From Tachypleus tridentatus (taxonomy: Eukaryota > Arthropoda > Merostomata > Xiphosura > Limulidae): 64,000 nucleotides of DNA. Where the stretch lies: NCBI RefSeq assembly GCF_004210375.1, contig NC_134830.1, forward strand, positions 46,381,094-46,445,093. Direction: 5' to 3'. Positions 21,531 through 64,000 of the stretch are shown here, in pieces. Below the pieces are notes generated by a model that had not been told where the DNA came from, did not search any database, and was given only the letters and a program-made list of their open reading frames with translations. The position numbers and the translations under genes are program-made. Position 1 is the first letter of the stretch, and each line of letters opens with the position of its first letter.

Positions 21531-21810
21531 CTGGAGCCAGTATTGTTGCAAAATTGGCTGTCTGGGGGAGTTGCATGGAAATAGTAGGTGAAGTGGTCCT
21601 GGAGGAAGAGGAACTTGTAGTGTATGTTGTTCCTAATGATGAGAGTGCACTCTGTGGTAGGAGAGGCAATGAGGTGATAGGGATTAGACCTGGCATTGAG
21701 GATGCAACTGTTAGCACAGGAGGAGACAAGGAGGCATTTGCACTGCTGCCACTAGATCCTCCACTCTGTACACCAGTATCTGGACTCTTTTCTGAGCACC
21801 CAAGAACTCC
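21531..21810 (-). CDS. SRF: SRF exon 3: start of transactivation domain
   Basis: 280-nt exon; acceptor CATTGCAG at phase 0, donor CCAG|gtgact at phase 1. It encodes about 93 residues: an acidic/polar start (GVLGCSEKSPDTG), a Ser/Thr/Pro-rich middle (including TTYTTSSSSSRTTSPT) and MQLPQTANFATILAPG. The last motif aligns with the conserved MQLPTSF..MPGG block in the vertebrate SRF transactivation domain, and it identifies an otherwise low-complexity exon. The exon lies about 39 kb downstream of the MADS exon in the transcript. An intermediate exon cannot be excluded, but the direct phase match (AAA|GGA) makes none necessary. Confidence 0.88.
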
Positions 21811-27541: not shown

Positions 27542-27590
27542 GTGTGTGTGTACGTGTGTGTGTGTATATATATGTGCGTGTGTGTGAAAA
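27541..27590. repeat. TG/TA microsatellite
   Basis: Mixed TGTG and TATA dinucleotide tract directly outside the right arm of the foldback repeat. A similar tract lies at about 26734-26765 left of it. Confidence 0.8.
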
Positions 27591-27689
27591 TATATTTTTA
27601 TTACGGATATGTACATCAAGAAACAAATAACTGCACCAGCAAACCTTTAACAAAATGATGTATATATACACTCTTTATACTTTTCTATA

Positions 27690-27855
27690 AAGTAACTAAA
27701 CCATGACTTATACCTACAGAAGGTAACTTTATTAGCTCAATATTTCGCTATTACAGCTTCATCAGGTGCTACCAGTACCATATAAATTTACTAACTAATC
27801 CAGCGGATGAAGGTGTAACAGCGAAATATTGATTTAATAAAGTTATATTTTGGAG
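27690..27855. repeat. Inverted pair with hammerhead-like cores
   Basis: Two complementary halves. On the minus strand CUGAUGA (27759-27765), a GCU/AGC mini-stem, then GAAAUAUUG. On the plus strand the diverged counterpart CGGATGAAGG...AGCGAAATATTG (27804-27831). Both are followed by AATAAAGTTA. Likely a short retroelement remnant or a foldback. Confidence 0.5.
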
Positions 27856-28008
27856 GTATTGATCCTGATTTTATTTACGTTTATAGAAATGTTTTATAAT
27901 AAACTCCAATTTGCATTAAACAAAGTTAAAAAAAAATGCATAATTGGTCTACGGCCATATCATCCAAAAAACTACTGGTGCTACAATCCATAACATCACA
28001 GATCCTAA

Positions 28009-28279
28009 GCCTGGCATGGCCAAGCGTGTTAAGGCGTTCGACTCGTAATCCAAGGGTTGCTAATTCGAATCCCGGTCGCACCAAACATCCTCGCCCTTTC
28101 AGCCGTGGGGACGTTATTATGTTACGGTCAATCCCACTATTCATTGGTAAAAGAGTAGCCCAAGAGTTGGCGGTGGGTGGATATGACTAGCTGCCTTCCT
28201 TCTAGTCTTACACTACTAAATTAGGAACGGCTAGCGCAGATAGCCTTCGATTAGCTTTGTGCAAAATTCAAAACAAACA
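28009..28279 (+). repeat. SINE-A copy, young and CpG-rich
   Basis: The best full-length SINE-A here. tRNA-derived head with A box TGGCCAAGCGTGTTAAGGCG and B box AATTCGAATCCCGGTCGCACC, then CCCTTTCAGCCGTGGGG. Body contains AAAGAGTAGCCCAAGAGTTG and GACTAGCTGCCTTCCTTCTA. Tail GCAAAATTCAAAACAAAC. Retained CpGs imply recent insertion or an unmethylated location. Confidence 0.88.
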
Positions 28280-30639
28280 CAGTTCCTAACTTTTACTGAA
28301 TTTCTAGATACTTTTATAATTTTTCATCTGTTGCTTTGATTATGTCTTCTATCTGCTAGACAACGTACCCCAAAAGCTTTTGGCTGTTTTGGCCAAAAAC
28401 ATTTTCACTTTTGTATAAATGATATAATTTTACATTGTTTTGTTACAGATTTGCTGGTGCAATCATGTATTTGTTGGTACGTATATCTATTATAAAAATG
28501 TTGTATTTCTATGACTATCTCGACATGGTTGTGCAGTTCTCAGTAATCTCCTTACACCTTTTGATGCAATACAGATAATTGTGAAATACATACACAAGCT
28601 TTTAAAGTGTCTCTCAATTCTTCAGCATCTTAAAATACTTAACATAATATTCATTTATCCCTCAACGTGTTATAAAAGCTTGACATGTTCTTCAACGCCA
28701 TCTGTACACAAGAATTAGAAGACTGATCAGCGTAAATGCCAAGTACGTATACTTGTGTGAAATAAACCACTCTTGTACTTCTACTTGGCAGAGTTACAGT
28801 TACACTACCATGTGACGTAAATAAACTATCAAGAAAATACGCGAGGAATCAGAGCATGTAAATGAAAACAATTAACGATACAATGAAAACTAACAGTGCA
28901 AGCTGATAAAAAGAAATAAAACCAAAAACTAATGTAAAACATGCTTAATTATTTATTTACTAGTTTTGAAAACTCTTAATGTAGAAAATAAATGCATCGA
29001 AGCACATACTATGCACCAATCCATTTATGTAGTTATTTATGGAAGGGGAGCTACGTAAGTATTCGTCGTAAATTCACTTATGAATTATGCCCACAATGAA
29101 GACTGTTGAGACTGTCCAAGATACACACTTCAAAAAGTGTTAGCTTTTTGCTAGTAAACTCTGACTCATTACACGTGATCATTTGTTCTAAGCACGTCTC
29201 CTAGACAAGGTACCGTACAACTTCACTGTTAACATGACACCCAAACGTTTCGCACTTTTAGCTTGGGCGGTACACGTGGCCTTTCAACGGTGACCCTGGC
29301 AAAGGTGTATCTGGTGTGTTCCAACCTCATTTCGCAGACAGAATCCATTACCACAATGCTTTGAATGTGGGGTGAGAAAGTAGAACATGTAATTATCTAT
29401 TACTAGATGTATTTCCACAGGGTATCCGAAAATGCTTTGTTTCGAGAGTAAATAAAACCAAAATTAAGAGTAAAAATGCTTTTATTTCTTGTTTTCGAGT
29501 TAATACGTCATGCTGTGTTGTAGCCTACAAAGAGTATAACTCCTCTCGTGATTCATGGCATACGCAAGTTTTACTGACAGTACAAATCGCAACGGAAAGC
29601 GTCTCTTATGTGACGGCATTTTATTAATTCGTGACCGACTTGTAGACAACACTTTGTTGCATAGTGGTGCGAATCGTTAAATAGATGATCACTCCCATGC
29701 GACCTCAGGCCCTCTTTCAGAGAAATAAAGATATTCTTTGTTATAAAATAGGTTTACGGAATACTTTATAAAGCAATCACGCTAAACGAAATATTCAAGA
29801 AAGTTAGAACAAATTAAAAAAAAGAAACGAGAAACACCTCTTATAAGAAAGTTACTTTTTTAATAATCACGTTCTTGAAAAAAAATATATATATAATGCT
29901 GAATATGCTTGTCTTGGTGATGATAAACTGAATCAAGCACATTGACTAAAGTTATCTGTTCTAGCTGTCCCTAAGTTTAAACTGATAAGACTAGATTTTA
30001 CCAGTCAAAAGTAACCAATCATTATCTCTTGGTATACTTTAATCAAATAGTAGGAATTTACCGTCACACTTATAACACATAGACGGACCAAAGGCGTGGA
30101 TTATGATTTTTTGGTAACGGAACAAAAACCGCAAACCGGTATGCCAACCACTTGATCACACCCAGTCCTTCATCTTATTAGAATGGTGATATCACGTCTT
30201 CATTTCCTCTTTTCTAGTCAAAGTAAGTTACACTTATAAGATTTGACTGATGTAAGAGCTTTGAAGACTATGTTTACTTTTTAATATACTAATCACACGT
30301 ACATATATAACTATCTATATATAAACTTATCCCGTTTCGTATCATACAAGTGAATATGTTAGTTGGTGCTTATTTTATCTTGTAAAGCCTACTATGCGTT
30401 TAGGAACGGCTAGACTAAACTACGCTATCATACTAAATTTCGCATTCCTAGCCAAAAAACAATATAAAAAAGTAACATCCCCCCACTGCCTTTTAAAGTT
30501 TAAAATGTTGGGGCCACTTTCGATACTGAGACTCTTCGCTCTGTAAACTCCGCAAAAATTGTTCAAGGTTAACTTGTATATATACATCTGTCTTTTGTTT
30601 CAATATCCACTTTCTTTTAGCAGATTAATTATGTCTTTT

Positions 30640-30770
30640 GTTGTTATTGTTGTTTACTTCAATGGTGTGATAATAATTTCGCTTCTCCTTGTCCTGGTTT
30701 TGGTCTTATAGACCAGGGAGGGTCAGATTCGCTTGGACCTCTTCCTCCTGAGAGGATGTAACACGATTTG
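30640..30770 (+). repeat. Repeat with hairpin, copy 1
   Basis: Shares TTCGCTTCT..., a hairpin (TGGTCTTATAGACCA), GGGAGGGTCAG and ACCTCTTCCTC with 32635-32725. A dispersed family of unknown type. Confidence 0.45.
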
Positions 30771-31659
30771 GGACGAACACACGCGCGCTAACTTAATTAA
30801 TCTGTTAAATGCAAGAGAAAGACAGAGTCCCTCACCCTCAAGGTGACATCTCAGAGTTGGTAATAATCAATCTAGCGTTTACACTATAATTGCGTATTCA
30901 CTCTTATATCCTGGTCGAAAAACTGCATCATGATAATAAATTAAAATATTTCTTTAAAATAAGTTAACGGTGCTTTATCAATGAAGATTTCGTTTTGAGG
31001 TAAATACAAATAAGCACTAAAAGTTATGCGTTTGCGAAGTGCTACGTAGACGTATTCGAAACTAGAAAGTATCGTCATTAGACAAGTGAAATATATATAT
31101 TTATTATGAAATACAAAATAGGCCCTTCCATAAATGGAAGTCAAAAAACGAAGCACCCATATATTTGTTGTTTCTTTACTAAAACACGTGCCAGATAGCC
31201 CGAGAGAGGCATCTATGACTCACGTTTACCAAAAACGTTCCTTCCTTCTCAAACATATGAAGAGTTTAGCTCTCCAAATAGGCTTCCTTTCGACGTCAAG
31301 ACTGTGACTGAAAAGAGCCACTGACTTTAAACTGTGTTACCTATTTTGGGCTTTCGATGTGCAGGAGGGTTTTTATCCAAGTCTACTGGTAAATGTATAA
31401 ACGTTGATGACGTCTGTTCTTTAAAAACACAACACCAACTTTGTCTCACACGTCAACACTAACATCTTTAGTCCAGAAGTGCTAAATTAGATCGGTAAGT
31501 CTATTGAAAAATCCTAGAGAAACAGTGTAGGTTTACAAAATCAGAATTAGAATGTACAGAATAGACAATAAGTGGAAGCTCGCTCGCTACAGCCCCCCTC
31601 CCACTAGGAATGTGCATGGGTTATACCAAAACGTAGTTCTTACGTGTAAGATCTTCATT

Positions 31660-31780
31660 TCAAACTAGAGCCGCGAGCTTAAATATAGCCTTTTAAGACC
31701 TGGATCTCAGAATCCATATTTAGAAGATCCCTGCTGCATGGCAATTAGAAAGGGGAACCAGGTCGCGGAGCTACAGTGAG
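31660..31780. promoter_or_regulatory. Candidate regulatory patch with MEF2/CArG-like sites
   Basis: Within a CpG-retaining area: TTAAATATAG fits the MEF2 consensus YTAWWWWTAR, and CCATATTTAG is one base from a CArG box, about 30 bases apart. Function is inferred only from motifs. Confidence 0.3.
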
Positions 31781-31937
31781 GTAGTTTACATAAGCCCATA
31801 CAACACTCGGGGAACAATATTTAATATATATTTCTGAAACAGGTTCTTTGTTGTGGCTAACCCTAGACTTACAAAATTGATAAGAATTACAAAATACTCA
31901 CTTCATATGCATAAAACATAAAAAATATTTAACTATG

Positions 31938-32056
31938 TGTTCGTTTTGTTTTAGCTCAAAGCTAAACAACGGACTATACACGTTTTGTCCATCGTGGAGA
32001 ATCAAACCACGAATTTTAACGTTATAAATTCATAAACTTATTGCTGACACACCAGG
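31938..32056 (-). repeat. SINE-B copy (tandem trio, 1)
   Basis: TTCGTTTTGTTTTAGCTCAA with AAGCTAAACAACGGACTA and, at the right, the diverged tRNA-like head (GAATCAAACCACG complement of a B box). First of three head-to-tail copies. Confidence 0.65.
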
Positions 32057-32093
32057 GAAAGGACTCTAATAGCAATAAAAACAAATAAGAATG

Positions 32094-32218
32094 TTTGTTT
32101 TTAGTTTCTTTTATCACAAAGCCACACAATGAACTATAAGTGGACTGTCCACTTCAGAAAATCAAACTCCGGATTTTAGTGTCACAAGTTCGTTAGCTTA
32201 CTGGTGACCCACCAGGGG
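32094..32218 (-). repeat. SINE-B copy (tandem trio, 2)
   Basis: TTTGTTTTTAGTTTCTTTTA, then CACAAAGCCACACAATG, GAAAATCAAACTCCGG and the CACCAGGGGACTC head end. Same orientation as its neighbours. Confidence 0.68.
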
Positions 32219-32227
32219 ACTCTTATG

Positions 32228-32345
32228 AAAACTGTTTGCTTTTTAGCACAAAGCTCACAATGAGCTATTTGGGTTTTGTCCATCGCAAACGAATCGAACC
32301 TCGGTTTTTAGCGTTATAAGTCCGTTAATTTATCGCTGACTTACA
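32228..32345 (-). repeat. SINE-B copy (tandem trio, 3)
   Basis: TTTTTAGCACAAAGCTCACA, TTGTCCATCGCAAACG, ATCGAACCTCGGTTTTTAGC. Third tandem member, about 10 bases after the previous copy. Confidence 0.68.
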
Positions 32346-32634
32346 AAACGACAAAGTGTGAGATAATATTATAAATGTAAGATAAGCTAGATGCATTTTT
32401 CACGCACGAGACAATTATGAAGGGTTGTAGAATAAATAATCTTTAAAGTACAGATATCAAAAATACGAATGAATACCGCTGTTAGAACGTACAAGAACTA
32501 AAAATATGTAGATAAAAACCATAAATAAATCTACAAATGTTAAAATCTGTTGCAGGTTCATATAACCCCACACTCAGTTGTTAAAAAGCATCATTACTAT
32601 TATTCACACACTCACATTATACGGCTATTTAGCT

Positions 32635-32725
32635 ACATTATTATTCGCTTCTTCTTTGTGGATATTTGGGTATTTTTAAATACCCAGGAAGGTCAGGTGC
32701 ACAAAACCTCTTCCTCGATCCCTAA
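32635..32725 (+). repeat. Repeat with hairpin, copy 2
   Basis: ATTCGCTTCTTC, hairpin TGGGTATTTTTAAATACCCA, then GGAAGGTCAGGTGC and ACCTCTTCCTC. The loop sequence differs from the 30.6-kb copy while the hairpin is kept, suggesting a structured RNA or element end. Confidence 0.5.
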
Positions 32726-32978
32726 CTTTCATGTCGGCTACTACTATGTTGTTGTAGTGCTTTTGGGTCAGAGTAACCCACAGTAATCCGGCCCTTTTTG
32801 GGGCAATGTCTATGTATTGTCTTGATTTGCCCTTTTTTTCTTTTTTATGTATGTTCTATTTTTTTCCATTATTACTTTTATTTTTTAAAATTATATATAT
32901 ATAACGGAAAAAGAGAAAGAAGAAAGTAAAAAAGAAAAACATATTAATAATAATCCACATTATTGTCCTTACATCAGT

Positions 32979-33256
32979 TTGGTTTGTTTTGAGCTTCGCG
33001 CAAAGCTACAGGTGGGTTATATGCGCTAGCCGTCCCTGATTTTGCAGGGTAGGTAAGACTAGAGGGAAGACAGCTATTCATCACCACCTACCGCCAACTC
33101 CTGGGCTACTCTTTTACCAACGAACAGTAGAATTGACTATCATATTATAACGTCCCCACACCTGAGAGGGCGAGCATGTTTGGTGTGACGGGGATTCGAA
33201 CTTGCGACCCTCGGATTACAAGTTGAGTGCCTTAACCACCTGGCCATGCCGGGCCT
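32979..33256 (-). repeat. SINE-A copy, young and CpG-rich
   Basis: Full-length minus copy: tail GTTTGGTTTGTTTTGAGCTT at the left, body GACTAGAGGGAAGACAGCTA, B box GGGGATTCGAACTTGCG, head ACCTGGCCATGCCGGGCC at the right end. Confidence 0.88.
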
Positions 33257-33697
33257 TTTACATTAGTTTACTAAAGCAGTCCAAATTTCATGAAATAAAA
33301 GATCACCAACACGAATAAAACACTTGAGATTTCAGAGTGGGCGTAGCTTCTAAAAGTCGAGGGAATATGGTATAAGTCAAAACGCTCACGTTCCAATCAA
33401 GCACGATGAATTATACAATCTTATAGGTCGTTTGATACATGTGAATCTGACAGTAAGAGATCCCTACTTGTATTTCAAAGCACCGGTTACAAGTAGGAGT
33501 TGATAACGCGAGTAAACCTCAATAATCTGTTTTTGTTTTTTAATCATTCCTTTCTAAGTTGAAAGTTAATGTTCTCACCTAAACATAACAAAGCAGTATC
33601 TATTTTAATTACCTCTCATCTGTGAATACGTGCATGTAAAAAATCTGGAAGATCATATACAGTGATATTAATTTTCTCAGTTGTCGAAATACTATCA

Positions 33698-33918
33698 GTT
33701 TGGTTTGAATTTCGAGCAAAGCTACACGAGGGCTATCTAGTCATCACCACCCATCGCCAACCCTTGAGCTACTCTTTTACCAAATAATACTGGGATTGAC
33801 CGTTATATTATAACGTCTCCATGGTAGAAAGGGGGAGCATGTTTAGGAAGACGGGGATTCGAACCTGCTACACTTAGATTGCAAATCAAGCGCCATAACC
33901 ACCTGGCCATGCCGGGCC
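33698..33918 (-). repeat. SINE-A copy with internal deletion
   Basis: Minus orientation. Tail AGTTTGGTTTGAATTTCGAG runs from GGGCTATCT directly into AGTCATCACCACCCATCGCC, skipping about 50 bases of the body. The head ACCTGGCCATGCCGGGCC is intact. Confidence 0.85.
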
Positions 33919-34119
33919 CCGGACTGTACTATAACTTAATCCAATTCGTACAATTTGTGTACGGAAAATTAGTTAAAGACTATTTCAATACAAAACTGCT
34001 TTTCGTGCTTCAAACCTGCACGACGAGTTAGTTATAATACTACACAAACGACTTCGTCGGAAACTTCATGAAATGTGTGGTTATGTTGCTTTTAAATACA
34101 CTTTTTCTCGAAACGTTTC

Positions 34120-34232
34120 TGCTAGCTCAGCGATAAGTCTAACTGTTTATAACTCTAGAATTCGGGATTCGATCACCGCAGCAGACACAGCGACGATTAC
34201 CCATCATGTGGTTTTGCGTTAAACCAAAAGAA
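34120..34232 (+). repeat. SINE-B copy, plus orientation
   Basis: Head GCTAGCTCAGCGATAAGTCT (A box), B box ATTCGGGATTCGATCACCG, then CAGCAGACACAGCG and the TGTGGTTTTGCG tail. Reads as a tRNA-derived SINE in the opposite direction to the trio at 32 kb. Confidence 0.65.
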
Positions 34233-35006
34233 ACCTCGTTTATTTGTTTTTTTCTGTACAGCAGATTTATCTCAGTCCAGTCCGCCGACGGAAAGGATTC
34301 CGCGAGACATTAAAGCTTCTTAAAAATCGTGGGGTAGCATCAAAATTACAATCAGTCTTATCAAATGAATTTACATGATCACATATGTATCTAAGGTAAA
34401 AAAAAAAGGAGGGTGAGAGTTTAAAAATAATTGTATATTCCTCTTTACGTTTTGTAGTGTTATTAATATATTTTATATATATTTCCGTATCATGATTTAT
34501 ATCAGCACATGTTAAGCACGTGCTACTTAAAATATTATTACTATACTACGTGTTGACTAAATAAACAAATATTAGTGTAAATTCTTATGTAAATACGATT
34601 ATACTGTGTTAAATCACTTCTGTTCACAATCGTCAGTTACCGCGTGCCAGATTTCGCTACAGATATTTATGTTTTAAAGTGATTGGCACTTACCCGCCAG
34701 AGCGTTTTCATTTTAAAAGATTTCGTATTTCTCGAAATGGTCGGTTTAGCTAAGGCATATAACAAAAAACACAATAAACCGAAACAATGCTACATACACC
34801 TCCTGAGTTTTGTTACTTATGAATTACAATGATACCAACAAGCGCAAATCTTGAATGTTTTGTTCTTAATGATACAATTTTATTTCGTATACACATTGCA
34901 TAAGCTTTGGGCTTAATTACACTTTTAATTGTAACGTACTGTAAATACGTAAAAAATTCAAGAATAACAACAGCCTTTTTAGTAATTTTACATTAACTAT
35001 AGGTTA

Positions 35007-35270
35007 GGCTCAGGTTAGGTGGTTAGAGTGCTCAGCTCAGAATCTGAGAGTCGTGGGTTCGAACCCCCATCATACCGAACATGCTCGCCCTTTCAGCCGT
35101 GGGGGTGTTATAACGTTCGATCAATTCCACCATTTGTTGGCAAAATAGTACCCCAAGAGTTGGCAGTGGGTGGTGATGACTAGCTGTCTTCCCTCTAGTC
35201 TTCCACTGCTAAGTTAATAACGGCTTGCACAGATACCCCTGGTGTGGCTTTGTGTGAAATTCAAAAACAA
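35007..35270 (+). repeat. SINE-A copy
   Basis: Head CAGGTTAGGTGGTTAGAGTG, B box TGGGTTCGAACCCCC, CGCCCTTTCAGCCGTGGGGG, body CCCCAAGAGTTGGCAGTG and an A-rich end (AAAAACAAAACGACAAAAAA). Confidence 0.87.
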
Positions 35271-35648
35271 AACGACAAAAAACAGAGAATATTTAATTGC
35301 AGCTTGTAAAGAAATAAAAGCTTCTTTTAAGTATTATGTAACTTCCCCTATATTTATTTCATAAACAGCTACAATTAAATAATGTATCGTTTTATGCTTA
35401 TGTACTGTTGTTTAACTTGTCATTTAATACCCATGTTCTAATAAGGATGAATCCATTAAAATGATGGGTTTTATTATGAACAAGTTACATGGAAATTATG
35501 GCATTTTCTAGAGGCTTGACACTTTAAGTTTTCTTGTAAAATTACGACCTGATGAAATAAATGTTGACAAATTATTATGCTCAATATTTGATGTTTCCCA
35601 AAACAAACCTTTCTCATGTCTAAATCTCACTTCATCATTTCATAATGC

Positions 35649-43689: not shown

Positions 43690-45839
43690 AGTTCATTGCT
43701 GAATGGTAAGATATATTCTGCCTATACCTGAATATTGAACACCTGTATACAGTAATATTTGAACATAAATTATATTAATGAGACTGGCTGCTATCTTTAA
43801 CAACTGCAGAAATGTAATAATAAAGCATTATTTGCATTTTTGAGAATTTTTCAATTTGTGATTTTTTTCCAAGAAGGCTACAAGATTAATAAAAAGTCTT
43901 ATAATTTATTACAGAACCAAGTTATAAAGTTTATTTTTCTTTTGAATTAATAAGAATAACAGATAATTAAGGTACTTGTATAATATTGTTATAATGATAA
44001 GCAAATCTTTAACAGTAATAATACTGCTAGATTTTTTAAAAAACCACCAGAACATTGTAAGTTTAAGACAAATAACAATTTTATGATGGGAATACTTTAT
44101 TTGTTTCTTTATGCTTTCTTATGAAGTTAAGTTGTATAGGTAAGCATATAACTGCAACTTTCTGTGTTCCTAGAGTTATTATTCAGAAAGTTACCTTGCA
44201 TTATGCAACTTTGTAGGTGTTTTTTAACCATCTTTTATTTCCTTTGGCATTTATTTTTGAAGTGATTATTTTGCAGAAAGCTGTATCTTTTTTACAGGAG
44301 TCTATCAGCTCAAAATGTAAATTTAAAATAATAACCTACTAATTCTGATTAGTCACTCCACATGGTACTAATAACTTAAAATTTGGGGTTCAACACCTAC
44401 AGACATGAGCATTTGCAGAAATGTTTCTGGGGGGGGGATCAAAGTAGTGTGAAATTGTAAACTGAATAAAAAAATTCATGAACATATACTGAATGAATAA
44501 AGAAAAGAATGTTTGTTATTTTCTGGGGAGGGGCAAAATTCATAAATAATAATAATACTTAAATAACAAAATAATCAAAAGCAATAGAAATTGATTTATT
44601 TTAATTGACTGTTGAGTATTAATATTCTATATATAAATGTGTGTGAATGTATATATAATAGGAAAACTACACTCAAAGTAATTTACATACACCATCAAAC
44701 AGTGTCACAATATGTTTTGAAAGATGTACAAGTATGTATGTATTTACATACAAATAATATGTATGCACACGTTATTAGCTACAGGCTTAAGCTGAATGTA
44801 AAACAATTTAAAAGGATCAGTTAAAAGTCCTGCATGAAAATAGTTTACATTTGAGTGAAGTACAAGAATAGCATAGATACATCCTTTAATTTCATACACC
44901 TAGAATATATATATATGTGATCTTTCACAAATAAACCTGAAATATTGTTTCAACGCCTTTTATAGTCAACTACATTGCAATATGTTTCAGAGTTGGTTCA
45001 TTGACAAACCCTAGTAACTGATTTAACCAAATCTGGTTTCTTAAACCATTAGCTTATGTAGCCATGAGTCATCAGACCTTGTGCAAGGCCTCAGCTACTG
45101 ATACCTGCCTTGCGAAGGACAACAGGCTACAAAACTGGTTAACTTTATTCATTCCTATTACCTTATAAGGTCATGATGAACCCTGAGGACACTCTTTCTC
45201 TACTATTAGCGTTGTCCCATGAAAACAATATATAAGACAGTAGGATCATACGAATATGACAATAATTTATTTTGATATAGATTGTACTGTACTTAGGCGT
45301 GAATATGAACTAAAATATAAGTCATAAATCAACCCTAAAGTTGGCCACACACTGTGAACAGGTGGCTACAGGGTTGTTAGAAGTAATAAATTATAGAGGT
45401 GAGCGAACTCGTACTCTCTCACCTACTTCCCAGACCACCAGCACCGATTCCCCTTACACAAGTCGAAAGAGGCTAAAATGTATTATCAAAGTGCAAGCAG
45501 TAAGGGATTAACTTACAACCTTACAATGTACATACAAGTGATATGGACAATATACATCATCTTATATATCACATCGTTCATTCTCGATATATTTAACATG
45601 TATATTTGTTATTAAGCAAAAAGCTTTACTATGAACAATCTGTGTTATTTCCATCACGAGTATCGGAAACAGTTATAAGACCTCAGACATACAACTAAGC
45701 TGTCGGAAGGCTAAACAAATTTAGGCCAATTTCTTTCCCTAAATGTACGGTTTGTTCATAAAATCCATAATTTAAACAGTGCTATTAGCGAAAAGAGCAT
45801 AATGTGAACGTTGTATATTGTTGAAGTTACACACACACA
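43690..45839. other. SRF intron 2, unassigned
   Basis: AT-rich. A run of nine G near 44429-44437. About 44935-45245 is distinctly less AT-rich and could be an old repeat, but I could not match it within the window. Confidence 0.4.
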
Positions 45840-46265
45840 CACCTTGAATATGGATGTTGTGGGTTCAAATCCTATTGCCAAATATACTCACTCTTTCAAG
45901 CGTGCCGGTAAGTTCCACTATTTGATTAGAATAACTCGAGCGTTAACGGAGGGCGGTGTTGACTAGGTGCCTTACATCCAGTCTATCACTTAATATTAAA
46001 TTGATTACCAACGATTTACACGCACGAAGTGGTTTATTGCTCCAAGTTTAGAGATAACATACTACATTCTTAACATAGTATGTTCCCTAAAAATAAACCA
46101 TTTTATTTTTACAGATTTTACAGATTTATACAGATCGTTGCTTATCAAGTTACTGTTATATTACCATAATGTGCTTCCACACACAAATCGTCTATTACTT
46201 CTAACTTAGGAACAGCAAACGCAGATAACCGTCAAGTAGCTTTGCTCGAAATTCAATACACAAGC
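45840..46265 (+). repeat. SINE-A copy split by an insertion
   Basis: Head and body at 45840-46010 (B box GTGGGTTCAAATCC, GGGCGGTGTTGACTAGGTGC) and tail at 46201-46265 (TAACTTAGGAACAGCAAACG, GCTTTGCTCGAAATTC), separated by about 190 unrelated bases. Confidence 0.6.
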
Positions 46266-46504
46266 ACGCTGTAGAAAATGTTATCTATACGTAAATAAAT
46301 TTGTGGCTTAAAATGGCACTCATTTACAGTGTTGTGTAACTAATCCATCTGATTAATTAATATATTAATATATGAAACTTATTAATAAATCATACTCAAG
46401 AAAATATATCGTTTATTTTATAAGGTTTAGGTTAAAAATTAACTCAATGCGAAAAGTGGATTTACATTTTGAGACATTATTGTCATTTCTTCCTATCAGA
46501 GTCC

Positions 46505-46705
46505 AGCATGACGAGATGGTTACGACGATTTCAGCCGTGGGAGCGTTATAAAGTTACCATCACCCGCTGGTAAAAAAAGAGTAGTCAAAAAAGTTGGCGA
46601 CGGATAGTGATGACTAGCTGACTGTTTTCCCTCTAGTATTTCGCTGCTAAATCAGAGACGGTCAGCGCAGAGAACCCCCTTATAGATTTGTGCGAAATTC
46701 AAATC
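46505..46705 (+). repeat. SINE-A copy with deleted head interior
   Basis: CCAGCATGACGAGATGGTTA jumps from the A box directly to TTTCAGCCGTGGGAGCG, omitting the B box. Body GTTGGCGACGGATAGTGATG and tail TTGTGCGAAATTCAAAT follow. CpGs are retained. Confidence 0.78.
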
Positions 46706-46989
46706 TTCATATTACTGAGTGAAATAATTATTTTCATTACAGAATACACTAATTACATCAGCATACAGAGTACCTAAAACCACTTCATCAAAGTTCATGC
46801 ATAATTACTCAAACACACAAACAATACCAGATAGACTTCTACAGAGTACAATAAAATATTTTGATAAAAATTGGCGAAACAATGAGTTGTTATACGAACT
46901 AGACAGGTATTGCATATATGATGAAGAGAGACCTAAACACCTTTCCCCGTTAAATCTATACATTAGATCATTAAGACAAAATCATTTAA

Positions 46990-47150
46990 AATAATAATAA
47001 TAATAGTATTAGAATAGAGATAAAATAAAACAGGCCACCTACGTTCTAGACTTATTAATTTAAATAAAATAATAATAGTATTAGAATAGAGATAAAATAA
47101 AACAGGTCATCTACGTTCTAGACTTATTAATTTAAATAAAATAATAATAA
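46990..47150. repeat. 72-bp tandem duplication
   Basis: Two near-identical 72-base units (AGAATAGAGATAAAATAAAA, CTACGTTCTAGACTTATTAA) differing by a few bases, bounded by AATAAT repeats. Confidence 0.9.
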
Positions 47151-47264
47151 AATCAAAGAACAATATAAATGGACATTGCCCTGAAAAGGACCTAAGTTTA
47201 TGATATTACTCCATCCATTCTGTATTTAAATCGAAATATATATTAATCTGGCAAATTATGCGCA

Positions 47265-47372
47265 ATTATTATGCAAAATTATTATGCGCAAAGCTACACA
47301 GTAGGCTATCTAATCTGTTTCGATGTTTAGCGCAATACGCTTCCAAATTTACCGTTGAGCCACCAGGAGGTT
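47265..47372 (-). repeat. SINE-B fragment
   Basis: ATGCGCAAAGCTACACAGTA, GGCTATCTAATCTGTTTCGA and a GTTGAGCCACCAGGAGG head end. Central part deleted. Confidence 0.55.
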
Positions 47373-47381
47373 TTGTTCTGT

Positions 47382-47505
47382 TTGCTGGTTAGTTGTTTTT
47401 AAGCGTGCAGCTACACAACAGGCTATCCATGTTCTGCCCAACATGGGTATCGAAAACTGATTTTGTGTGCTCTAAGTTTAGACTTTTAAACTGAACCACG
47501 AATGT
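47382..47505 (-). repeat. SINE-B copy
   Basis: TTGCTGGTTAGTTGTTTTTA, GCTACACAACAGGCTATCC, CATGGGTATCGAAAACTG (B box complement). Same orientation as and adjacent to the previous fragment. Confidence 0.65.
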
Positions 47506-47584
47506 GTATCACTGATAGAAATAAACTATATCAATGTTGTTCATATAACTGGCGCTATGAGCCTTTAGGTCACCATGCACCTCA

Positions 47585-47935
47585 AAACAACTGGTACTGG
47601 TATTAAAACGTTTACTGAAATGAAGTATAAAAGAACGTTTCGACCTTCTTAGGTCATCTTTAGGTTAACAAGGAGATTGCAACTAACGTTGCCGGGCACA
47701 CGACTTGAGGACGAGAGCGAAAACGGGTACGGGATTGTAGCGGGCATTGTAGTATATGTTAGATTATTAATTAGTATAGGTATAAAGGTGTTCCTTTATA
47801 TTGGTTTGGGTTGTTATATAAGTAGGGCTTCTTTGATTTTGCGTTTATGTTTGTTTCCCGACTTACTATCTGGGTGTCTTCTATGGTTATGTTGTGTTTA
47901 TTTAATTCGCAGTGTTCAAAAACAACTGTCATAAC
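47585..47935 (-). mobile_element. Penelope-like element fragment B
   Basis: Minus-oriented 3' end. The decayed EHCELNKHNI...KSKKPYLYNNPNQYKGTPLYLY coding end corresponds to the C terminus of the GIY-YIG protein. The 3' region with a hammerhead-like core and the TACCAGTACC terminus follow toward lower coordinates. CpGs retained. Confidence 0.72.
47628..47676 (-). ncRNA. Hammerhead-like motif, copy B
   Basis: Minus strand: CUAAAGA (one base from CUGAAGA), stem GACC/GGUC around UAAGAA, then intact GAAAC. The complement on the plus strand reads GTTTCGACCTTCTTAGGTC. Flanking GUUAA and UUAAU could form helix I. Confidence 0.5.
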
Positions 47936-48404
47936 TTTAATCGCACCAGCTAACAGTGGCAAAATCTATATAGTAACTATATAAATCACATCAGCTTTGT
48001 GAATTGGTGAAATATTCCATTTACCACAGAGCCACTAGAGTAAGAAAGTTTCATGAAATACATAAATCGGACACACTTCAACAATTTCTGCTGGTACTTT
48101 ATGCAACAAGGTTTGAGTCATAAGATTATGTTAGTGAGACCTTGGATTCCTACTCATTAAAAACAGTTGTCAATTTGTGTGTGTAACGCTTATACTATGA
48201 GTCAGTTTTAATTTATACTGCATCATTCCCATTGATATTTTGAGTGTCATTGAAAATTTTTATTTTCTAAATATTTGATTGTTTATGTTTCATGATGAAG
48301 AGGGAAGTTTAGTGAACAAAGCTTCCTAAAGGAAGACTGCTCCCCTACCCGGCTTTTCTTTACGCAGCTCTAACCTGTAATTTTTTGACGAGTAAGGCAA
48401 AACG

Positions 48405-48640
48405 CCTACACTACTACTGTGTCTATATCGACCCAGACGAGCCCCGGTATTCGACGAAAGACCTCGTCGACAGTAAATATCGCAGATGTAGTGCGACTGA
48501 TATCAAACATATTCTCCTTTGCTTTCGTTATGACAAGAAACCCAGTTGAAGTAAAAACGAATCCCAGGACGGCTTGTATGGGTATTAACACTTTTATCAA
48601 AATATAGCAGAGAACAACATCCCAAAATACACATCTTATT
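48405..48640 (-). mobile_element. Penelope-like terminal fragment E
   Basis: Holds the family's terminal phrase (plus strand TTGTATGGGTATTAACACTT) joined to GACAAGAAACCCAGTTGAAG. The latter also flanks the copy at 59.5 kb. The adjacent 120 bases are CpG-rich and open on both strands, probably 5'/terminal-repeat sequence of the same family. Confidence 0.55.
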
Positions 48641-50552
48641 CGTTTTGTCTTATCTGTTCGTAAAAGAATTCATACACATTTGTTCGCACACAAGGTAATT
48701 TCCCCACATTACTTGTGTGTTGTTTGTGCATTTATAAAACTTTGAAAAATTAGTTTGTGTTTGCACATAAACACTTTTAAAATTGATAAATAATTTTAGA
48801 AAATGATAACACGGAACTCCATGTCCTTCACCTCTTCACTAATGTTATCACTTGTTCTGTCGTTTATTTTGAAGCATTATAAAAAGTTGTAAAACAGCAA
48901 AATAACCAGTTCACATACTCTTACTGTGGCTAACCTATCTGAAATATAAGCATATCACTCAGATCAAATGATTAAGGTATTGAACGAATGTTTCACACTA
49001 ATATCTGTTACAGCAATAATCAGATTTTGTTTGTCCTGAAAAATGCGTGCCTTCTTTATTATTGAAATGCGCATGCGCACGCACTTAATTTCGTCGGATG
49101 TAAATATACTTTCAGTAAACATATCGTACAACAATATATCAAGAGTTTTAAAAAGGGTCTAACGTTAAATCGTAGAATAGTATTATAAATTTATTTACTG
49201 ATTGTATTAAGTAAGGTAAAGTTTAGCCCTAACCAAGCTAAAGCAAAAATTTACACAAGTTAGTGTTAATTTACCTTTTATCAAATACAATACGTACTTA
49301 AAGGTTTAACTAGCACTAGGCTTAAGAAAAGTGGACTTAAGATTTCGGTATTTGCGATTAGAATTCTTTTGGATTATTTTTTATAAGTCCCGTATTTACA
49401 AAAAGGACTATTATAATAAGGTTACTAATGTGACAACAAATGTTTCGCAGGTCTCTGCTAGTATACCCATATTAGACACAATATGCGACTGCAGTAAAAA
49501 AAAAACAAAAAAAAAAACAAAACGTAAATGATTGTACACCACACCACTACGATGAAACCAAGAACACAAGTTTCATTCTGAGTTTACTTGCTGATTATAA
49601 GTACAGTGAGAGCACCAACTTTTAATAAAACAATAATAATATCATATTGGAGTATTTCATGTAATGATATTAAAAGTTAGTTCTGATAAAATTTACTGTA
49701 CGTTTTAGGAGGTTATTAGTATTCTTTGAGTGTATGCTCTAGTATACACATTTAGTGCATGGGTGGGCCCGTAACATGTGCGGTCATAAATGTGGACTCT
49801 GTTCCTCATACAGCTTGTGCAATCATCAGCCCACATGCCAATTCTCTCACAACATTAGTAGCAGTACTTTATTCGCTCGTTTTGAAGTATTCTACAAAAT
49901 GGCAAATTGTTTACATATGTTAAAACATAGACACTTTTGTATTGAAACACCAAAGATGATGAATTTGTCGTGAGTGTATAAGAAGGGATCTAAAAATGTA
50001 AATTCATATTTTAAAATTTACGAAAATGCAATATATAAGTTTCTTATTATTCTTTCAAGCTATTTATTACATGGGCAAACATATGGTGATTTTCTGACTG
50101 GTTTACCTAATAAAATTATTAAGAAAAAAGTATGTCAACATAGAACACAAATGAGCTTAGTGGTAACAAAACTTTAATGGACTTTCTTCCTAAAAACTAA
50201 TCAAATAATGAATACCAGCGTTATAAAATAATTATAACTGAAAACAAATGAAATCAATGGTGAAGTATTGAACAGTATTATGCTGAGTGGCTAAAGTTTG
50301 CAACTGCATTAATCACAAAGAAATAGTACAAAAGATTAAAATGATTGATTATCTGAACGTATACTATATCTTATTGCAGTTCTGTCTGTAACTTTAATAT
50401 CACTTTTTAATTTTGTTTTCAAAAGTTGGCACCTGAAAAAATAAACTGCCATTTTAAACACTGAAAACACCTGAATAGTGATTTATATACAAGATGCACA
50501 TACATGTATTCTGTAGTATATCCCTTGCAGGGGCATTCTATCAGTGCTTTTT
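48641..50552. other. SRF intron 2, no feature seen
   Basis: The first half retains CpG (GCGCATGCGCACGCAC at about 49071); the second half is plain AT-rich. No exon or repeat recognised. Confidence 0.4.
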
Positions 50553-53730: not shown

Positions 53731-56699
53731 TTCCTGCTTATTTCAATTGCTTTACACAATTGTAATCAATTTAACTTTGGGTCACATAAAATTAAAAGAT
53801 CAAAGAAAAAAAATGCGTACTTGTTAAATCAAGTAAAACATTTTCTACATAAAAACTAAAAACTACAAAATGATTAAAACATCTCTTTGATGTGTAATAC
53901 AAACTTTAGGTAAAATTTTTATAATATTGAAATTTTTTTAAACAGCCATGTTATGGTGTTAGAAGTACAATACTTTGAAATTCAGCAAATTTATAGAAAA
54001 GGTAATAAATCATACTTTTTTATAAATAGAGTTTTCATACTAAAATTAATTTAGTACAGTTTTGTTAAAACAAACAAATTTTAGAAACAAAAACCACTAT
54101 TAAAAGATATTTTCAGCCTGTAAACCACCAGCAGTGAAATCAATGCATTATCCAACACACACTGCTACATATGGCTGAGATGCTAGGGAAATAGTTCAAC
54201 AATTCCAGACCTTTGCAATTTCCTATTAACATGCCATTGTATTTTGTATACCAAGTAGAGGCACTTAAAATATAAAGAGTAAAAAGTGTTTGGTTATGAT
54301 ACTTCTAGATGTATCAGCCATGTAAAATATTTTAGTAAATTTTGAAGTGAGAACAAAGTGATGCATCTATCACCACTGCCCAAAAAAAGGGGCAGAAGGA
54401 AGGTATGTTGTTTAGCTTCCTAAAACAACCAAGTTACTGAAGTTAAAACAACTGTGCTTCAAAGACAAAAGAACAGTAGCTGGATAGTAACACCTTATAA
54501 CTGAAACGTGACTGGTTCTAAAAACGATATACAAGGCATTATTCTGTTAGGTTATTGGCATACTGTATTACATTAAAACATGAATAATCCTACTATATCA
54601 GCCAGATCTTTTCTTCTACTCCGGAAAAAAAAAAAAGAAAACCAGGGAAATCTTTACTAGCTAGTGTGACAATAATAAAGTTTGGTGGCAGAACAGGAAA
54701 ACATTCCTGGTGGAATTGTCTGAATGGTTAGCTACAGTAGATGCAAAACCAAGTTACAGCTACATCCATACTGAATACATATATTGTAGTTTGATGGATG
54801 GTCCTAAAAAAAAAAAAAAGAAGGAAGATAAGCTTGTAAGAATTAATATCTAATGTGTCTCTTCATATTCCCACAAGAAACTTTCACTAAAATGTTTTGT
54901 AAATCAACAACACAGATCAAAAGTATTTCTTTCTATATTAGCAATGGTGAAATATAGCTATTAATGATAGACATTCATTGTTATAGTTACTCTCACTTTG
55001 AAGTTTTTTCAGTGGCTTTTACTGAAAATCAGGAGTAAGATTGATCTAAGGTTAAACTTGTAAAAGGAATTTCTAAGTAAAAAAATTGAAGAATTTTCAT
55101 AGATTATTATTAATAGAACTTTGTGTAGACAGTAAATAATACACTTATGCATGATATCAGTTTTGTATTAACAAAGAAAAAGATAAGAGAAATCACTTTT
55201 AATTTCTGGAAATATTTTTTTTTGAAAGGAGTAATTCTTTTTCTCACAAAACTGCTGTACGATAGATATCATTTAAATTTTATAATTCAATAATACGAGG
55301 TTATTGAACTTCTGGTCTATTCTGAAACACCACCACCAAGTCTGTGAGAAGAGGATCACCACAATGTGTTACACTGAATATAACAGCAACATTACATGAA
55401 CAGCAAAAGTAAAACTGTGTGCATGTGTGTAAGGATATAATTGATTTCTAGAGTTTCATTAAAATAATAATATATGATGTGCACAAATTTCAGTTTTCTT
55501 AAACACTGCCAAATGTGAAAAGTTGTCTTTCACCTAAACAGTATATTTCTCAACAACTGCACATACTATTTAACTCAAATGTTACAATTACAGTGCATAA
55601 AAAAAATATTTATTACCACAAGTGTTCACTTGTTTTTAAACTGGTTCACACCATAACAGTTATTATTCACAAAACTTTATATATATGATTTCACTTGCAT
55701 TAGATTTGACATATGTAGTACGTATGGTTAATATATTCTCTTTCAGTAAAGGGCTCTTAGGATTACTAATGTAGTTTTCTCCCAGTGATGTAATAGTTGG
55801 AACAGGAAGGCTAGCTTGATATTTAATCCAATGTTATGAGTGATAGTAAAGTCAATAATAATAAATATAAATAGAGAAATAACTGATTGGTGTTAAAAAT
55901 AAAAATAGTGTTTTCGTATTAATTCTTACCATAAAAATCTGGTTTGTACATAAATTAAATAAAATTGATAATTACAATTCACTTGGTTAATATGGTTTGC
56001 ATTATAACAGTTGCTCACAGAAACTAATGATACTATCTAGCACCTAGACTACTGCCATGTCTGTCCTATCCCATTCAAACTGGTAACACCTAGTATTGGG
56101 TGGTATTGTTGGAATTGGATATAGATGCAGTGTGATTGACATATTATAACATACTTTCCTTTGCTTTCAATCATGGGTTCTTTGAATGTAACGGAGATTC
56201 CAAAATAAGCATGGCTGTTATTAGTACTTATTATGAAACAAATCAGAATATTAGTTTCTGCTTGCTTCTATTTCACATAAATAATGCACACCTTAACACA
56301 GGTTCAAATGATTTATTTACTGTATAAAATATTTAGTTTTACAGAAATGTAACTTTCTCAACAACTCTCTCCTTCTAATATTGCTCTCAAACATCCAAAA
56401 TTGAAACTGGAAACCAGCCAGTTCAGGCAAATATATATACTGAATGTTTCAGTATGCATCTGGTACAAAAATATGGCTTATAATTTTATACTAAAAACTA
56501 ATATACCAACATGGTTCCCTAATTGCAACTTTAAAGCCTGCTACACAAAAATAAAGTGTTAACATTGTTCTTGATAAAAAGTGGACATGTAACATAAGAT
56601 CAAACACAAATGAAATATCTATCCCTAGAATCTACTAAAATGGCACCAGTTGTCTTGACTGAAACAAATCAGGTTGGAATGTTTATTATTTTATATTTA
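53731..56699. other. SRF intron 2, no feature seen
   Basis: About 3 kb of AT-rich sequence with poly-A runs; no exon, repeat or RNA gene supported. Confidence 0.45.
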
Positions 56700-58180
56700 G
56701 TTTACTGGTTACACATACACACAGCGCTAAGTTGATTGTCACCTTTAAAACACCACGAAATTTAACGGTATTTTATAAGTATTGTAATTTTTAGAGGTCA
56801 CAAATGTACAAAAATCTAAACTAATTTAGGTGAACAAGAGAAACAACTAAATTAATTACTCGAATGACCTACTTTGGACGACTTTTTAAAATGTTATCGG
56901 TCAGGTAAATCTACCGAATAAGTAAAGTATAATCCAAATATAATAAAAACATTTTATATTAAAATAAAGTAAATCTTTACTCTTAAGAATAATAATTATA
57001 CGTTACATATATAATTCTAATAAAATATCAGTTCTGTCAAGTTAAACGTTTCCTAAAAAACTATATTGTTCTAAATGTTGGCGAAATGTTAAGGATAACA
57101 AAAAGTAATGGTACTTTAACAACATCCGAGAGTGAAAAAAATACTAGAAATAATGGATTAACTATTAAAGTTCACGAAACTCTGTAAACAAAATTATACT
57201 AAAATTTATTAAAATAATTTTTGACCTTGTTATAAACGAAAACTAACAAACCATGCTAGCCACATAGTTTAATTCCAAACCGATAAAGTGAGAGGAAATA
57301 AAAACCACTGCCGCCCTTGTCTAATTTATCCAAGGGTATTTATTAACCCAACTTACACCATACTACATTTTATTTCTCCTAAGCAATTGAAAAACAAATC
57401 TAAATAATACGGAAAAATTATAAAGAACATTTATTACTGAACGTAAATGAACATCGAATGTATAATGTCAAAAACCAGCTTCGACATTTTCCATGTTCAG
57501 TACATTTATCAACTAACAACAAAGTCTGTATGTTTAATCCACCAATCGTTGAAAACTTGTAGCTGCAGAGATCATGTGATTAAGTACGGTCCAGCCGACT
57601 TCCTAGTAAGGAGAATCTGGTCTCACACTGGATCCACTGATACCACAGAAAAAAGCCGGTTTCCATTTTAGGGCACTTGGCCTTTCACATGGCCCCTCCA
57701 GCAAGGCCGGCTATGACTAATAAGGAACGAAGACAACTATAAAAGGAAATGGATACACCCTCCCTGGCCATATATGGAAAGACGTCTAAAACCCGCGAGA
57801 GAAAAACCATTGACAAAATCTCAAGGACAGATACAGAAGCTGAGGTTTTCGACGTCGTGCCTGAGAACCGCGGCGCCCGGCGCTACATGTGCATCAGGTC
57901 CGGTGCTGAACTGGTAGCTGTTGCTGCGTCTCGCTGGTCTGGATGTCAAAGGTTGTCAGTCGAAGGAAGTCCACACTAAATTGTATAGAAAGGGGGTAGT
58001 TTCTGCATGTTGTATTCGGGAACCTGGGCGAACATTTGGGGCTGGTGGTAGGACATCTGCAGAAAGGAGGGAGGAGAAAACAGAAAGGGGAAAAACATGC
58101 ATCAGTGCAAACGTCTAATGTTCAGGTCTCTCTAAGAAGTCAATAATGGTGCAAACTAGGGCTGGCCGATTTAACCCTTT
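56700..58180. promoter_or_regulatory. CpG-retaining, G+C-rich intronic island
   Basis: From about 56.7 kb CpGs reappear, and 57.58-58.12 kb is the most G+C-rich stretch of the window (CGGCGCCCGGCGC at about 57871). It lies about 2.6 kb downstream of SRF exon 2 and holds a CArG-box cluster and a TATA-like sequence. Plus-strand open frames at 57447-57671, 57749-57979 and 57921-58118 match nothing I know. An enhancer or alternative/antisense promoter is the best inference. Confidence 0.5.
57663..57777. promoter_or_regulatory. Cluster of CArG boxes (SRF binding sites)
   Basis: Perfect CC(A/T)6GG sites: CCATTTTAGG at 57663-57672 and CCATATATGG at 57768-57777. One-mismatch sites: ACTAATAAGG at 57716-57725 and CTATAAAAGG at 57737-57746, the latter also a TATA-like box. 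GGAA (Ets core) lies beside several of them, as in serum response elements bound jointly by SRF and ternary complex factors. Vertebrate SRF promoters carry CArG boxes and are autoregulated. Confidence 0.6.
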
Positions 58181-59479
58181 GGTTTTTTGTTGAACATTAC
58201 TTATTCAACCAAGCTTGTTTTAACTAACGGCCACTGCTCATGTACCCTGGTGAGCGGCCAACGCTAATTGTGCACCAATATGACAACCAGACATCACTAC
58301 ATCGTTGATTGAATAGAAGCAGCTCACAACTAGCAGCACCGGACCTTCTGTTGCTTACTTTCTTTAGTTTACTTAGCACTGCAATTAGAAGAAATGTCTT
58401 TCTTCAAGTAGTTCATACTTAATTAATTCCTGTAGCACATACACCTTGAATAATTATAATATTATTACTAATAACACAGAAAATAATTCTTAAAATTTAT
58501 TCAAGTGAATGCAGTAAAATCTTTCTTACTGCCATTAAAATGTTTAAAAATATTCAACAATGAATCTCCAAGTCAACCATACCAAAATGGTGTAATTTTA
58601 AGAGTAGGGTCCATACGAGATTCTTGAACATAAGAATAAAACACATGGATAAGTAGGGTTTCATTTGAAGTGTTTTGATGTTGCTTTTTCTACAGATGTA
58701 GTGGTTGTGGGTATTTTATATCACCACTCTCTCTGCTCTGGTTATAGCTGTTCATATTTTCTCACAATTCTTTAGACAACATAGTTGGTAGGAAGATGTG
58801 CCTTCTTCCTGACCACATGGCATTTTTCTCAGCATTAAAACAGAAATATTTCTCTGGTCTCTTATTTGACTTGCTTTCTCTGCAACTGGTAGTCTGTCAT
58901 GGTCATATACATCTGTTAAACTGGATGCACACTTATTTGCTATCTTACTCTTGCTGAATCTGATACTTCTGGTATATATTCAACTTCAACAAAACCTTCT
59001 GTTTTTTTCTTCATGATTACTGGTTTCATAAGAATCTCTACAGATATTGTATTACAGTAATACCAAGACCTCAGGTAAACTTTATTAACACAGTTCTTCC
59101 TCTATCAAAATAAAGTCCTTGTATCTCTTCTAAATCATTTTTTTGGATAGAGAAGCACAGTTGAATCCCTCAAATAACAAACACAAATTAAAATTTCCAA
59201 GAGTTGATGAAATATGAATGTGTGCCCCCAAAGGTGAAACACTGTATATGGTCTAGTTGATTCAGAGATTCATGGTTTTAAAAATATACTATCAGTTACA
59301 AATATACATTTTAACAGTTGAGTAAAACTAACTAAATTGTATGTTTCAAAAATCAAATATTATTGGAAGAATAAAAGGTAACATGCTGCACACTGTTATC
59401 TGGTTTTGTTTCCTTGGTGGCTCATGTTCACAGAAAATAAACTGAACCATTATTGTTACATTGCAACGCCCACCAACCA
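58181..59479. other. SRF intron 2, 5' part
   Basis: A hairpin-forming patch at about 58225-58262 (GGCCACTGCTCA versus TGAGCGGCC). Otherwise AT-rich intron without a recognised feature. Confidence 0.4.
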
Positions 59480-60766: not shown

Positions 60767-61028
60767 TTTGTTTTCTGTATCCTCATTTACACTGTAAACA
60801 AGTTCAGTTTCTTCAAAACCAGTAGCACTCATCCTCTGGTCAGGTCCCGAGCCACCTGGTCCAGCCGGGGGGATCAGGAGAGTTTAGACAAGTTTGGATT
60901 AGTGCTTTTCCAGCCTCACTAGTGATCATAGGTTGCAATTTTCTAGTAGCAAACGTATAAACATGTCCAGTTTCACTAGCTACCAGAAGCATCACTTGTG
61001 TGCCTGTCAGTGTTGACAGCTCATAGGC
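60767..61028 (-). CDS. SRF: SRF exon 2: MADS box C half and SAM extension
   Basis: The exon follows acceptor TTGTCAG and starts with AYELSTLTGTQ, the residues that follow KTGIMKK at the exon 1/2 boundary of vertebrate SRF. It runs through the MADS beta strands (VMLLVASETGHVYTFATRK) and the SAM region (KLQPMITSEAGKALIQTCL) and ends with MSATGFEETELVYSV before donor AAA|gtaagt, phase 0. This part mediates dimerisation, contacts with ternary complex factors and MRTF, and part of DNA bending. Oddity: the exon is 262 nt, and a one-base shift is needed in the run of six G (plus strand) at 60867-60872 to join LNSPDPP to GPDQRMSATG. Read literally the frame ends at a TGA shortly after. Removing one base would give 261 nt and a clean phase-0 exon. 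Confidence 0.95.
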
Positions 61029-63447: not shown

Positions 63448-64000
63448 AAAAAAGCAAGCTATGCTAGTATTATAAGATAGTATTAATTAAAGCAAGCTAT
63501 GCTAGTATTAAGATAGTATTAATTAAAGCAAGCTATGCTAGTATTATAAGATAGTATTAATTAAAGCAAGCTATGCTAGTATTAAGATAGTATTAATTAA
63601 AGCAAGCTATGCTAGTATTATAAGATAGTATTAATTAAAGCAAGCTATGCTAGTATTATAAGATAGTATTAATTAAAGCAAGCTATGCTAGTATTATAAG
63701 ATAGTATTAATTAAAGCAAGCTATGCTAGTATTAAGATAGTATTAATTAAAGCAAGCTATGCTAGTATTATAAGATAGTATTAATTAAAGCAGCAAGCTA
63801 TGCTAGTATTATAAGATAGTATTAATTAAAAGCAAGCTATGCTAGTATTATAAGATAGCATTAATTAAAGCAAGCTATGCTAGTATTATAAGATAGTATT
63901 AATTAAAGCAAGCTATGCTAGTATTATAAGATAGTATTAATTAAAGCAAGCTATGCTAGTATTAAGATAGTATTAATTAAAGCAAGCTATGCTAGTATTA
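63448..64000. repeat. 35/38-bp minisatellite, runs off the window
   Basis: About 14.5 head-to-tail units built on AGCAAGCTATGCTAGTATTA plus TAAGATAGTATTAATTAA. Long (38) and short (35, lacking one TAT/TAA step) units alternate irregularly (L S L S L L L S L L L L L S), with one unit carrying an extra AGC and one a T-to-C change. Near identity implies recent expansion. It lies in SRF intron 1. Confidence 0.97.

Follow-up and report, generated by a model that had tools for sequence, protein, structure and literature searches.

The second intron of an SRF gene in the horseshoe crab Tachypleus tridentatus contains a 534-bp island with a cluster of CArG boxes that is real and exceeds chance, and five CArG-like positions of the island are kept in both SRF genes of this animal, with two perfect boxes per copy. 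We consider it likely, from the sequence, that the island is an SRF-bound intronic regulatory module, i.e., an enhancer that feeds back on SRF, and we judge this reading the most likely of those weighed below. As both of the SRF genes found have kept this block of SRF motifs, SRF probably uses it as a switch to tune its own production. SRF autoregulation is already known, and what is new is a precise candidate for it in a chelicerate arthropod, preserved in both of the SRF genes found.

Results

The host gene and its second copy

The window (the whole stretch of DNA that was analysed, 64,000 nucleotides) covers much of an SRF gene on the minus strand. In the PDB, the translation of exon 2 finds SRF chains at E values down to 2.6e-29. 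Exon 1, which encodes the first half of the MADS box, is located past the window end at about 65.8-66.1 kb in window numbering. Exon 3 gave no hit in Pfam, and its assignment leans, beyond the features in Table 1, on what we take to be a likeness to the C-terminal sequence of SRF. The intron between exons 2 and 3 spans about 38,956 bp and holds the island, which agrees with the 39-kb SRF intron named as its setting in the preliminary description of this DNA; the island thus sits in a long intron downstream of the MADS box, the position of the antisense RNA bsAS.

A search of the animal's own genome (2.17 Gb in 205 contigs, three candidates scored for exon 2) revealed two SRF genes, each on a contig of chromosome size, here called C6 (the contig of the window) and C1. 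Exon 2 is 85% identical between them and its protein 93%, and Ks between the two genes is about 0.74 (195 codons); exon 3 of the C1 gene was not found within the C1 stretch compared. Genome duplications have been published for horseshoe crabs (PMC7815833). Two further features of the locus were seen. At 60860-60880, in exon 2 on the minus strand, the reading frame appears to shift at six consecutive C near 60870, where the C1 copy is open; either the assembly is wrong at this homopolymer or one of the SRF copies carries a true frameshift. Between exons 1 and 2, a tandem array with a 38/74/112-bp unit occupies 63451-64000 and continues off the window end.

Table 1. Positions of the exons, conserved blocks, CArG sites and CpG-retaining domains discussed in the text, in window numbering
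Feature	Position	Strand	Remarks
SRF exon 2	61028-60767	minus	second half of the MADS box and the following segment
SRF exon 3	21531..21810, start at 21810	minus	placed by frame and splice-site words; 3' limit inferred from a GT
CArG array upstream of exon 1	66458-66508 (past window end)		promoter by position only
Paralog-conserved non-coding island	57535..58068		534 bp; 76.6% over 547 alignment columns against the C1 copy
Identical run of 32 bp	57589..57620		
Identical run of 30 bp	57692..57721		includes conserved CCCCTCC, 57693-57699
One-mismatch CArG CCTAGTAAGG	57602..57611		same in C1; within the 32-bp run
Perfect CArG CCATTTTAGG	57663..57672		C1 copy CCATTTTCGG, one mismatch
One-mismatch CArG ACTAATAAGG	57716..57725		C1 copy ACTAATATGG; gap of one base at this site in the MAFFT alignment
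CArG-like CTATAAAAGG, one mismatch	57737..57746	+	with TATA-like TATAAAA, 57738-57744; C1 copy CCATAAAAGG, perfect CArG
Perfect CArG CCATATATGG, 3'-most	57768..57777		C1 copy CCAAATTTGG, also perfect
GAGAG kept in both copies	57797..57801	+	
Second collinear conserved block, non-coding	56305..56479		73.5%; without a perfect CArG
Third collinear conserved block	45074..45181		70%; perfect CArG 45161-45170 CCTTATAAGG, C1 copy CCTTATATGG
CpG-retaining domain D1	27550..35282		o/e 0.94; perfect CArG at 31128 and 31340
CpG-retaining domain D2	45080..49904		two HMM segments, o/e 0.88 and 0.95, with a 208-bp gap
CpG-retaining domain D3, around the island	56706..58361		o/e 0.85; flanks 0.18 and 0.12

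A cluster of CArG boxes in the island

The two perfect and two one-mismatch CArG boxes listed in the preliminary description are all present, and a fifth CArG-like site, at 57602, is added here. The box at 57768 is a palindrome in both copies by way of two symmetric changes. From 57663 onward the boxes are spaced by 53, 21 and 31 bp in the window and by 56, 22 and 31 bp in the C1 copy; that they are in helical phase is a post hoc idea, and a weak one. Across the window there are 7 perfect CArG sites (4.75 expected) and 79 with one mismatch. In 4000 simulated windows that kept the local dinucleotide content, two perfect sites fell within 115 bp somewhere in 4.1%, any four sites did so in 15%, and four sites of which at least two were perfect did so in only 4 (0 of 200 in a first run). 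The perfect pair alone, which had been called striking, is thus only mildly unusual, whereas the whole cluster is rare.

Two kinds of element named beside the boxes overlap them. The GGAA cores said to be interleaved with the boxes (three in the span, at 57724, 57745 and 57776) each form where a CArG-like box supplies GG and the next two letters are AA, and are therefore not independent evidence; the TATA-like box, offered as an extra element, is the same site as the CArG-like box at 57737 and had been counted twice. The description of the island as the G+C peak of the intron holds at the 200-550 bp scale; at 400-550 bp it is slightly exceeded by DNA that resembles a transposon, at 13.7 kb, which is not part of the intron.

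Conservation of the island between the two SRF genes

Two possible refutations named beforehand, loss of the sites in relatives and membership of a genomic repeat, were addressed within the genome. The island has two matches there (very common words skipped), one in the same intron of each SRF gene and in the same orientation, 2.7 kb from exon 2 in the window and 1.5 kb in C1. Of 78 intron tiles compared with the paralog on the same strand, the two that match best are those of the island (80.8% over 276 columns, then 77.3% over 216). With the paralog standing in for a relative, 4 of the 5 CArG-like positions keep or improve their match and the one at 57663 loses a base. A transposable-element copy or a chance cluster, for which one could point to the perfect pair being expected by itself in 4% of windows, is hard to reconcile with only two genomic matches, both in SRF genes, and with strong conservation at a Ks of 0.74, and we assign it a probability close to nil; a repeat or transposon origin was rejected on the same two matches.

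Other identities for the conserved sequence were also considered. A conserved coding exon was rejected: two ORFs were without a Pfam hit, and the gaps of the island alignment, with lengths of 2, 2, 1, 1, 2, 1, 4, 3, 1 and 1, break the frame. No Rfam family reached the cut-off and no tRNA was found anywhere in the window. It might also be proposed that the island is a conserved regulatory element of other factors in which the CArG boxes are incidental, as parts of the longest runs of identity (32, 30 and 20 bp) fall beyond the perfect boxes. Since much of the conserved 534 bp has no CArG site, other factors are involved too; that the boxes are incidental is nevertheless improbable, given that CArG boxes have likewise been kept at 45.1 kb and in front of exon 1 and that control motifs of the same shape are not concentrated in conserved blocks, as described next.

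Concentration of CArG boxes in conserved blocks

The collinear blocks common to both loci are those at 45074-45181 and 56305-56479, the island, exon 2, and exon 1 with the part upstream of it. They are 5 of 39 BLAST rows, set with CArG content ignored, and 4 of them entered the count below, exon 2 being excluded. Nearly all of the remaining 34 rows are out of order or on the opposite strand; those that fit the order and were excluded are at C6 26955 and 66615 (inverted or further copies) and 96318 (short). The SRF locus has several CC(A/T)6GG boxes, namely those at 57663, 57768 and 45161 and one at 66499 upstream of exon 1. In the array there, CCATGTTTGG and CCATATATGG are common to both genes, CCGTATAAGG in C6 stands against CCATATATGG in C1, and the array adjoins GGGGAGGGCGG, again common to both.

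The four blocks make up 1.51% of 104 kb in C6 and hold 4 of its 9 perfect CArG boxes (P 6e-6); in C1 they make up 1.21% of 130 kb and hold 5 of 14 (P 5e-7), and the two counts are not independent because these copies are the sole homologs compared. Fifteen control motifs with other G/C end pairs fell in the blocks 0 times of 66 and 1 of 68. When all 39 BLAST rows were taken as blocks, repeats included, they covered 6.8% in C6 and took in 4 of 9 perfect CArG boxes (P 0.002), and in C1 they covered 5.5% and took in 5 of 14 (P 0.0006), against 2 of 66 and 4 of 68 for the controls. Conservation of CArG boxes between homologous loci is thus above chance, as judged on paralogs. The changes within nine CArG cores lean toward A/T swaps. 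These account for 4 of 7 changes as aligned by MAFFT (P 0.022 against a background of 17.8%), a register in which one promoter site is one base off and the promoter sub-range was poorly chosen (57.5% identity), and for 5 of 7 when the cores are registered by hand (P 0.003). Just downstream of exon 1, C1 has a perfect CArG pair 65 bp apart, at 76841569 and 76841634 (local 98739 and 98804); the site list holds no perfect CArG at the matching place in C6.

CpG-retaining domains

The window is strongly depleted of CpG (median o/e 0.17 in 600-bp windows). Within the intron, a two-state HMM called three long domains with o/e of 0.85-0.95, against 0.08-0.26 in the adjacent segments, and the smallest, D3, holds the CArG cluster; the CpG o/e around the island is therefore well over the depleted background. 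Elsewhere the HMM picked out minor patches and, at 13.5 kb, an element that resembles a transposon. The domain that bears the island measures 1656 bp here and 1582 bp in C1, and its edges lie 829 and 293 bp from the island here and 839 and 207 bp in C1, while the flanks align poorly. This agreement is suggestive only, because other domains lie nearby and 55% of the C1 stretch is CpG-retaining. D1 has no collinear match within the C1 stretch compared.

A repeat family with copies at 15.5, 25.1, 28.0, 33.0, 33.7, 35.0, 38.7, 46.5 and 53.5 kb, a tRNA-type SINE by eye, provides a natural clock of past germline methylation. Nine copies were aligned (fragments 11098-11156 and 46197-46260 were excluded) and 13 CpG sites scored, with CG required in at least two copies and the sites hence chosen on the inside copies. 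Ancestral CpGs were kept at 39 of 58 positions in the five copies inside domains and at 0 of 46 in the four outside, where 35 of the 46 lost sites read TG or CA. Non-CpG divergence overlaps between the groups (0.12-0.25 inside, 0.16-0.24 outside). When sites were chosen on the outside copies alone, a choice that by construction favours CpGs lost outside, the inside copies read CG at 18 of 40. A Penelope-like repeat, compared with one copy inside a domain, goes in the same direction. From this clock it follows that the domains escaped CpG decay, and the domain around the island is probably germline-unmethylated in both copies, as judged by CpG loss alone. CpG o/e has likewise been used to deduce that exons are methylated in Limulus, spiders and scorpions (PMC6409797), while by published averages for arthropods introns are less methylated than exons (PMC7343188).

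Perfect CArG boxes favour the CpG-retaining domains modestly, with 5 of 7 in 22% of the window (Markov expectation 0.8-1.2; rotation test 3.6%) and, over the wider stretches, 7 of 9 in 47% (C6) and 10 of 14 in 55% (C1); one-mismatch sites are not enriched (21 against 17.5 expected). The enrichment being modest, it is given no weight in our conclusion.

D1 and D2 are themselves candidate regulatory domains within this CpG-depleted SRF gene body. Nine ORFs from them were put through Pfam, with one sub-threshold match to MreD (47653-47934, 22.5 bits, cut-off 24). Three of the nine AP-1 words (TGA[CG]TCA) in the window are at D2: 45065, which is 15 bp before its edge, and 48114 and 48198, both in the CpG-poor 208-bp gap. 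Among the mobile elements of the window are transposase remnants with HTH matches at 13494-14480 (Tc1-like by eye, CpG o/e 0.74, perhaps a recent insertion), a decayed non-LTR-like retrotransposon at 831-4849 with a reverse transcriptase match at 2155-2877, and a dispersed repeat, Penelope-like by eye, at 9217-9590, 47.7 kb and 59.8 kb (9297-9590 without a Pfam hit).

Could the island be a promoter?

The main rival to an enhancer is an antisense promoter. In this reading, plus-strand transcription from the island would yield a non-coding antisense RNA that runs toward SRF exon 2 and is itself under feedback from SRF, as a counterpart of bsAS. The island lies in an intron downstream of the MADS box, as does bsAS in flies and an antisense transcript in Daphnia (PMC7793246). 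Its TATA-like site has the antisense orientation (TATAAAA here, CATAAAA in C1) and in both copies is 31 bp from the next CArG box; that same site is a perfect CArG box in C1 and may simply be a CArG box. The part richest in G+C and CpG, at about 57.78-57.95 kb, comes after the TATA-like site. The conserved GAGAG is just downstream, and in the fly GAF alone had sites at the start of SRF as well as that of bsAS (PMC7793246); however, the window contains 74 copies of GAGAG or CTCTC. The initiator-type words TCAGT, TCATT and CCAGT are absent at 57700-57900, and of the two plus-strand donor-like words conserved by pattern, one is upstream of the TATA-like site and the other degenerate. In addition, bsAS has been traced only to the root of Pancrustacea (PMC7793246). 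On balance, an antisense promoter is possible, if unlikely.

The preliminary description had also suggested a minus-strand start giving an SRF form without the MADS box. As both MADS-coding exons are upstream, a transcript starting in the island would indeed lack the MADS box, and the last CArG box, being palindromic, fits either strand. The minus strand of the alignment nevertheless has no conserved donor word by the pattern used, and we found no support for such a start; the alignment gap lengths speak against a conserved coding exon, although not against a non-coding one. An internal SRF promoter of this kind is very improbable.

Discussion

How might the island act as an enhancer? SRF dimers may occupy several of its CArG boxes; a GC-box factor and partners of the MRTF or Ets type would probably take part, and the island would then enhance transcription of SRF itself, working alongside the CArG array upstream of exon 1 and the intronic CArG block at 45.1 kb. 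What the sequence shows are the sites, the conservation of their positions in the two genes, their concentration in conserved blocks and the retention of CpG in both copies; the binding, the partners, the enhancer activity, the target gene, the sign of the feedback and the absence of methylation are inferred. The autoregulatory element first proposed gains support from the CArG sites kept in the paralog, while binding to them remains a prediction. Several observations count against the enhancer reading, namely that the CArG box at 57663 is degraded by one base in C1, that many of the conserved 534 bp lie away from CArG sites, and that the CArG pair of D1 is without a collinear match in the C1 stretch compared. 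Moreover, an element bound by SRF need not act on SRF. Among the matches listed in our literature search, whose coverage mostly leaves out subscription journals, no paper described a CArG module within an intron of SRF in any arthropod, and none was found on an intronic Srf enhancer with CArG boxes. More generally, pockets that retain CpG in a heavily CpG-depleted gene body suggest regulatory DNA and may help to find such elements from sequence alone.

An arthropod parallel is Drosophila blistered (DSRF), in which a 26-kb intron holds bsAS; the bsAS start contacts the SRF start TSS1, and bsAS represses the long SRF isoforms, which rise upon its loss (PMC7793246). The island resembles bsAS in being a candidate element in a long intron past the MADS box, with an antisense TATA-like site and a conserved GAGAG, and differs in that bsAS is a measured transcript whereas the island is known from sequence alone. 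Outside Pancrustacea, the arthropods listed for isoform annotation in the bsAS survey are Strigamia and Tetranychus (PMC7793246). It is doubtful that the island is an antisense promoter that responds to SRF and that insect bsAS is its homolog by both location and function. If this were so, the antisense switch on SRF isoforms would date to the root of the arthropods rather than of Pancrustacea, and would be wired directly to SRF via CArG boxes.

Muscle actin genes offer a second comparison. Their proximal promoters have a CArG box upstream of the TATA box, and the island likewise has one about 75 bp before its TATA-like site; unlike in those promoters, its CArG boxes are also on and after that site, and no coding gene was recognised beyond. 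Fly Act88F has one near-consensus CArG site close to its TATA box (PMC6467476).

Read as an enhancer, the island can be compared with the mouse Srf locus, where several CArG boxes also lie at the gene for SRF itself. The autoregulatory CArG elements of mouse Srf are mainly promoter-linked. A fall of Srf in the mouse was considered 'likely due to autoregulation' via CArG elements (PMC8806183), and SRF has been treated as its own target (PMC7311390). The horseshoe crab differs from the mouse in having a 534-bp intronic module with five CArG-like positions, predicted to be bound, in addition to an array upstream of exon 1.
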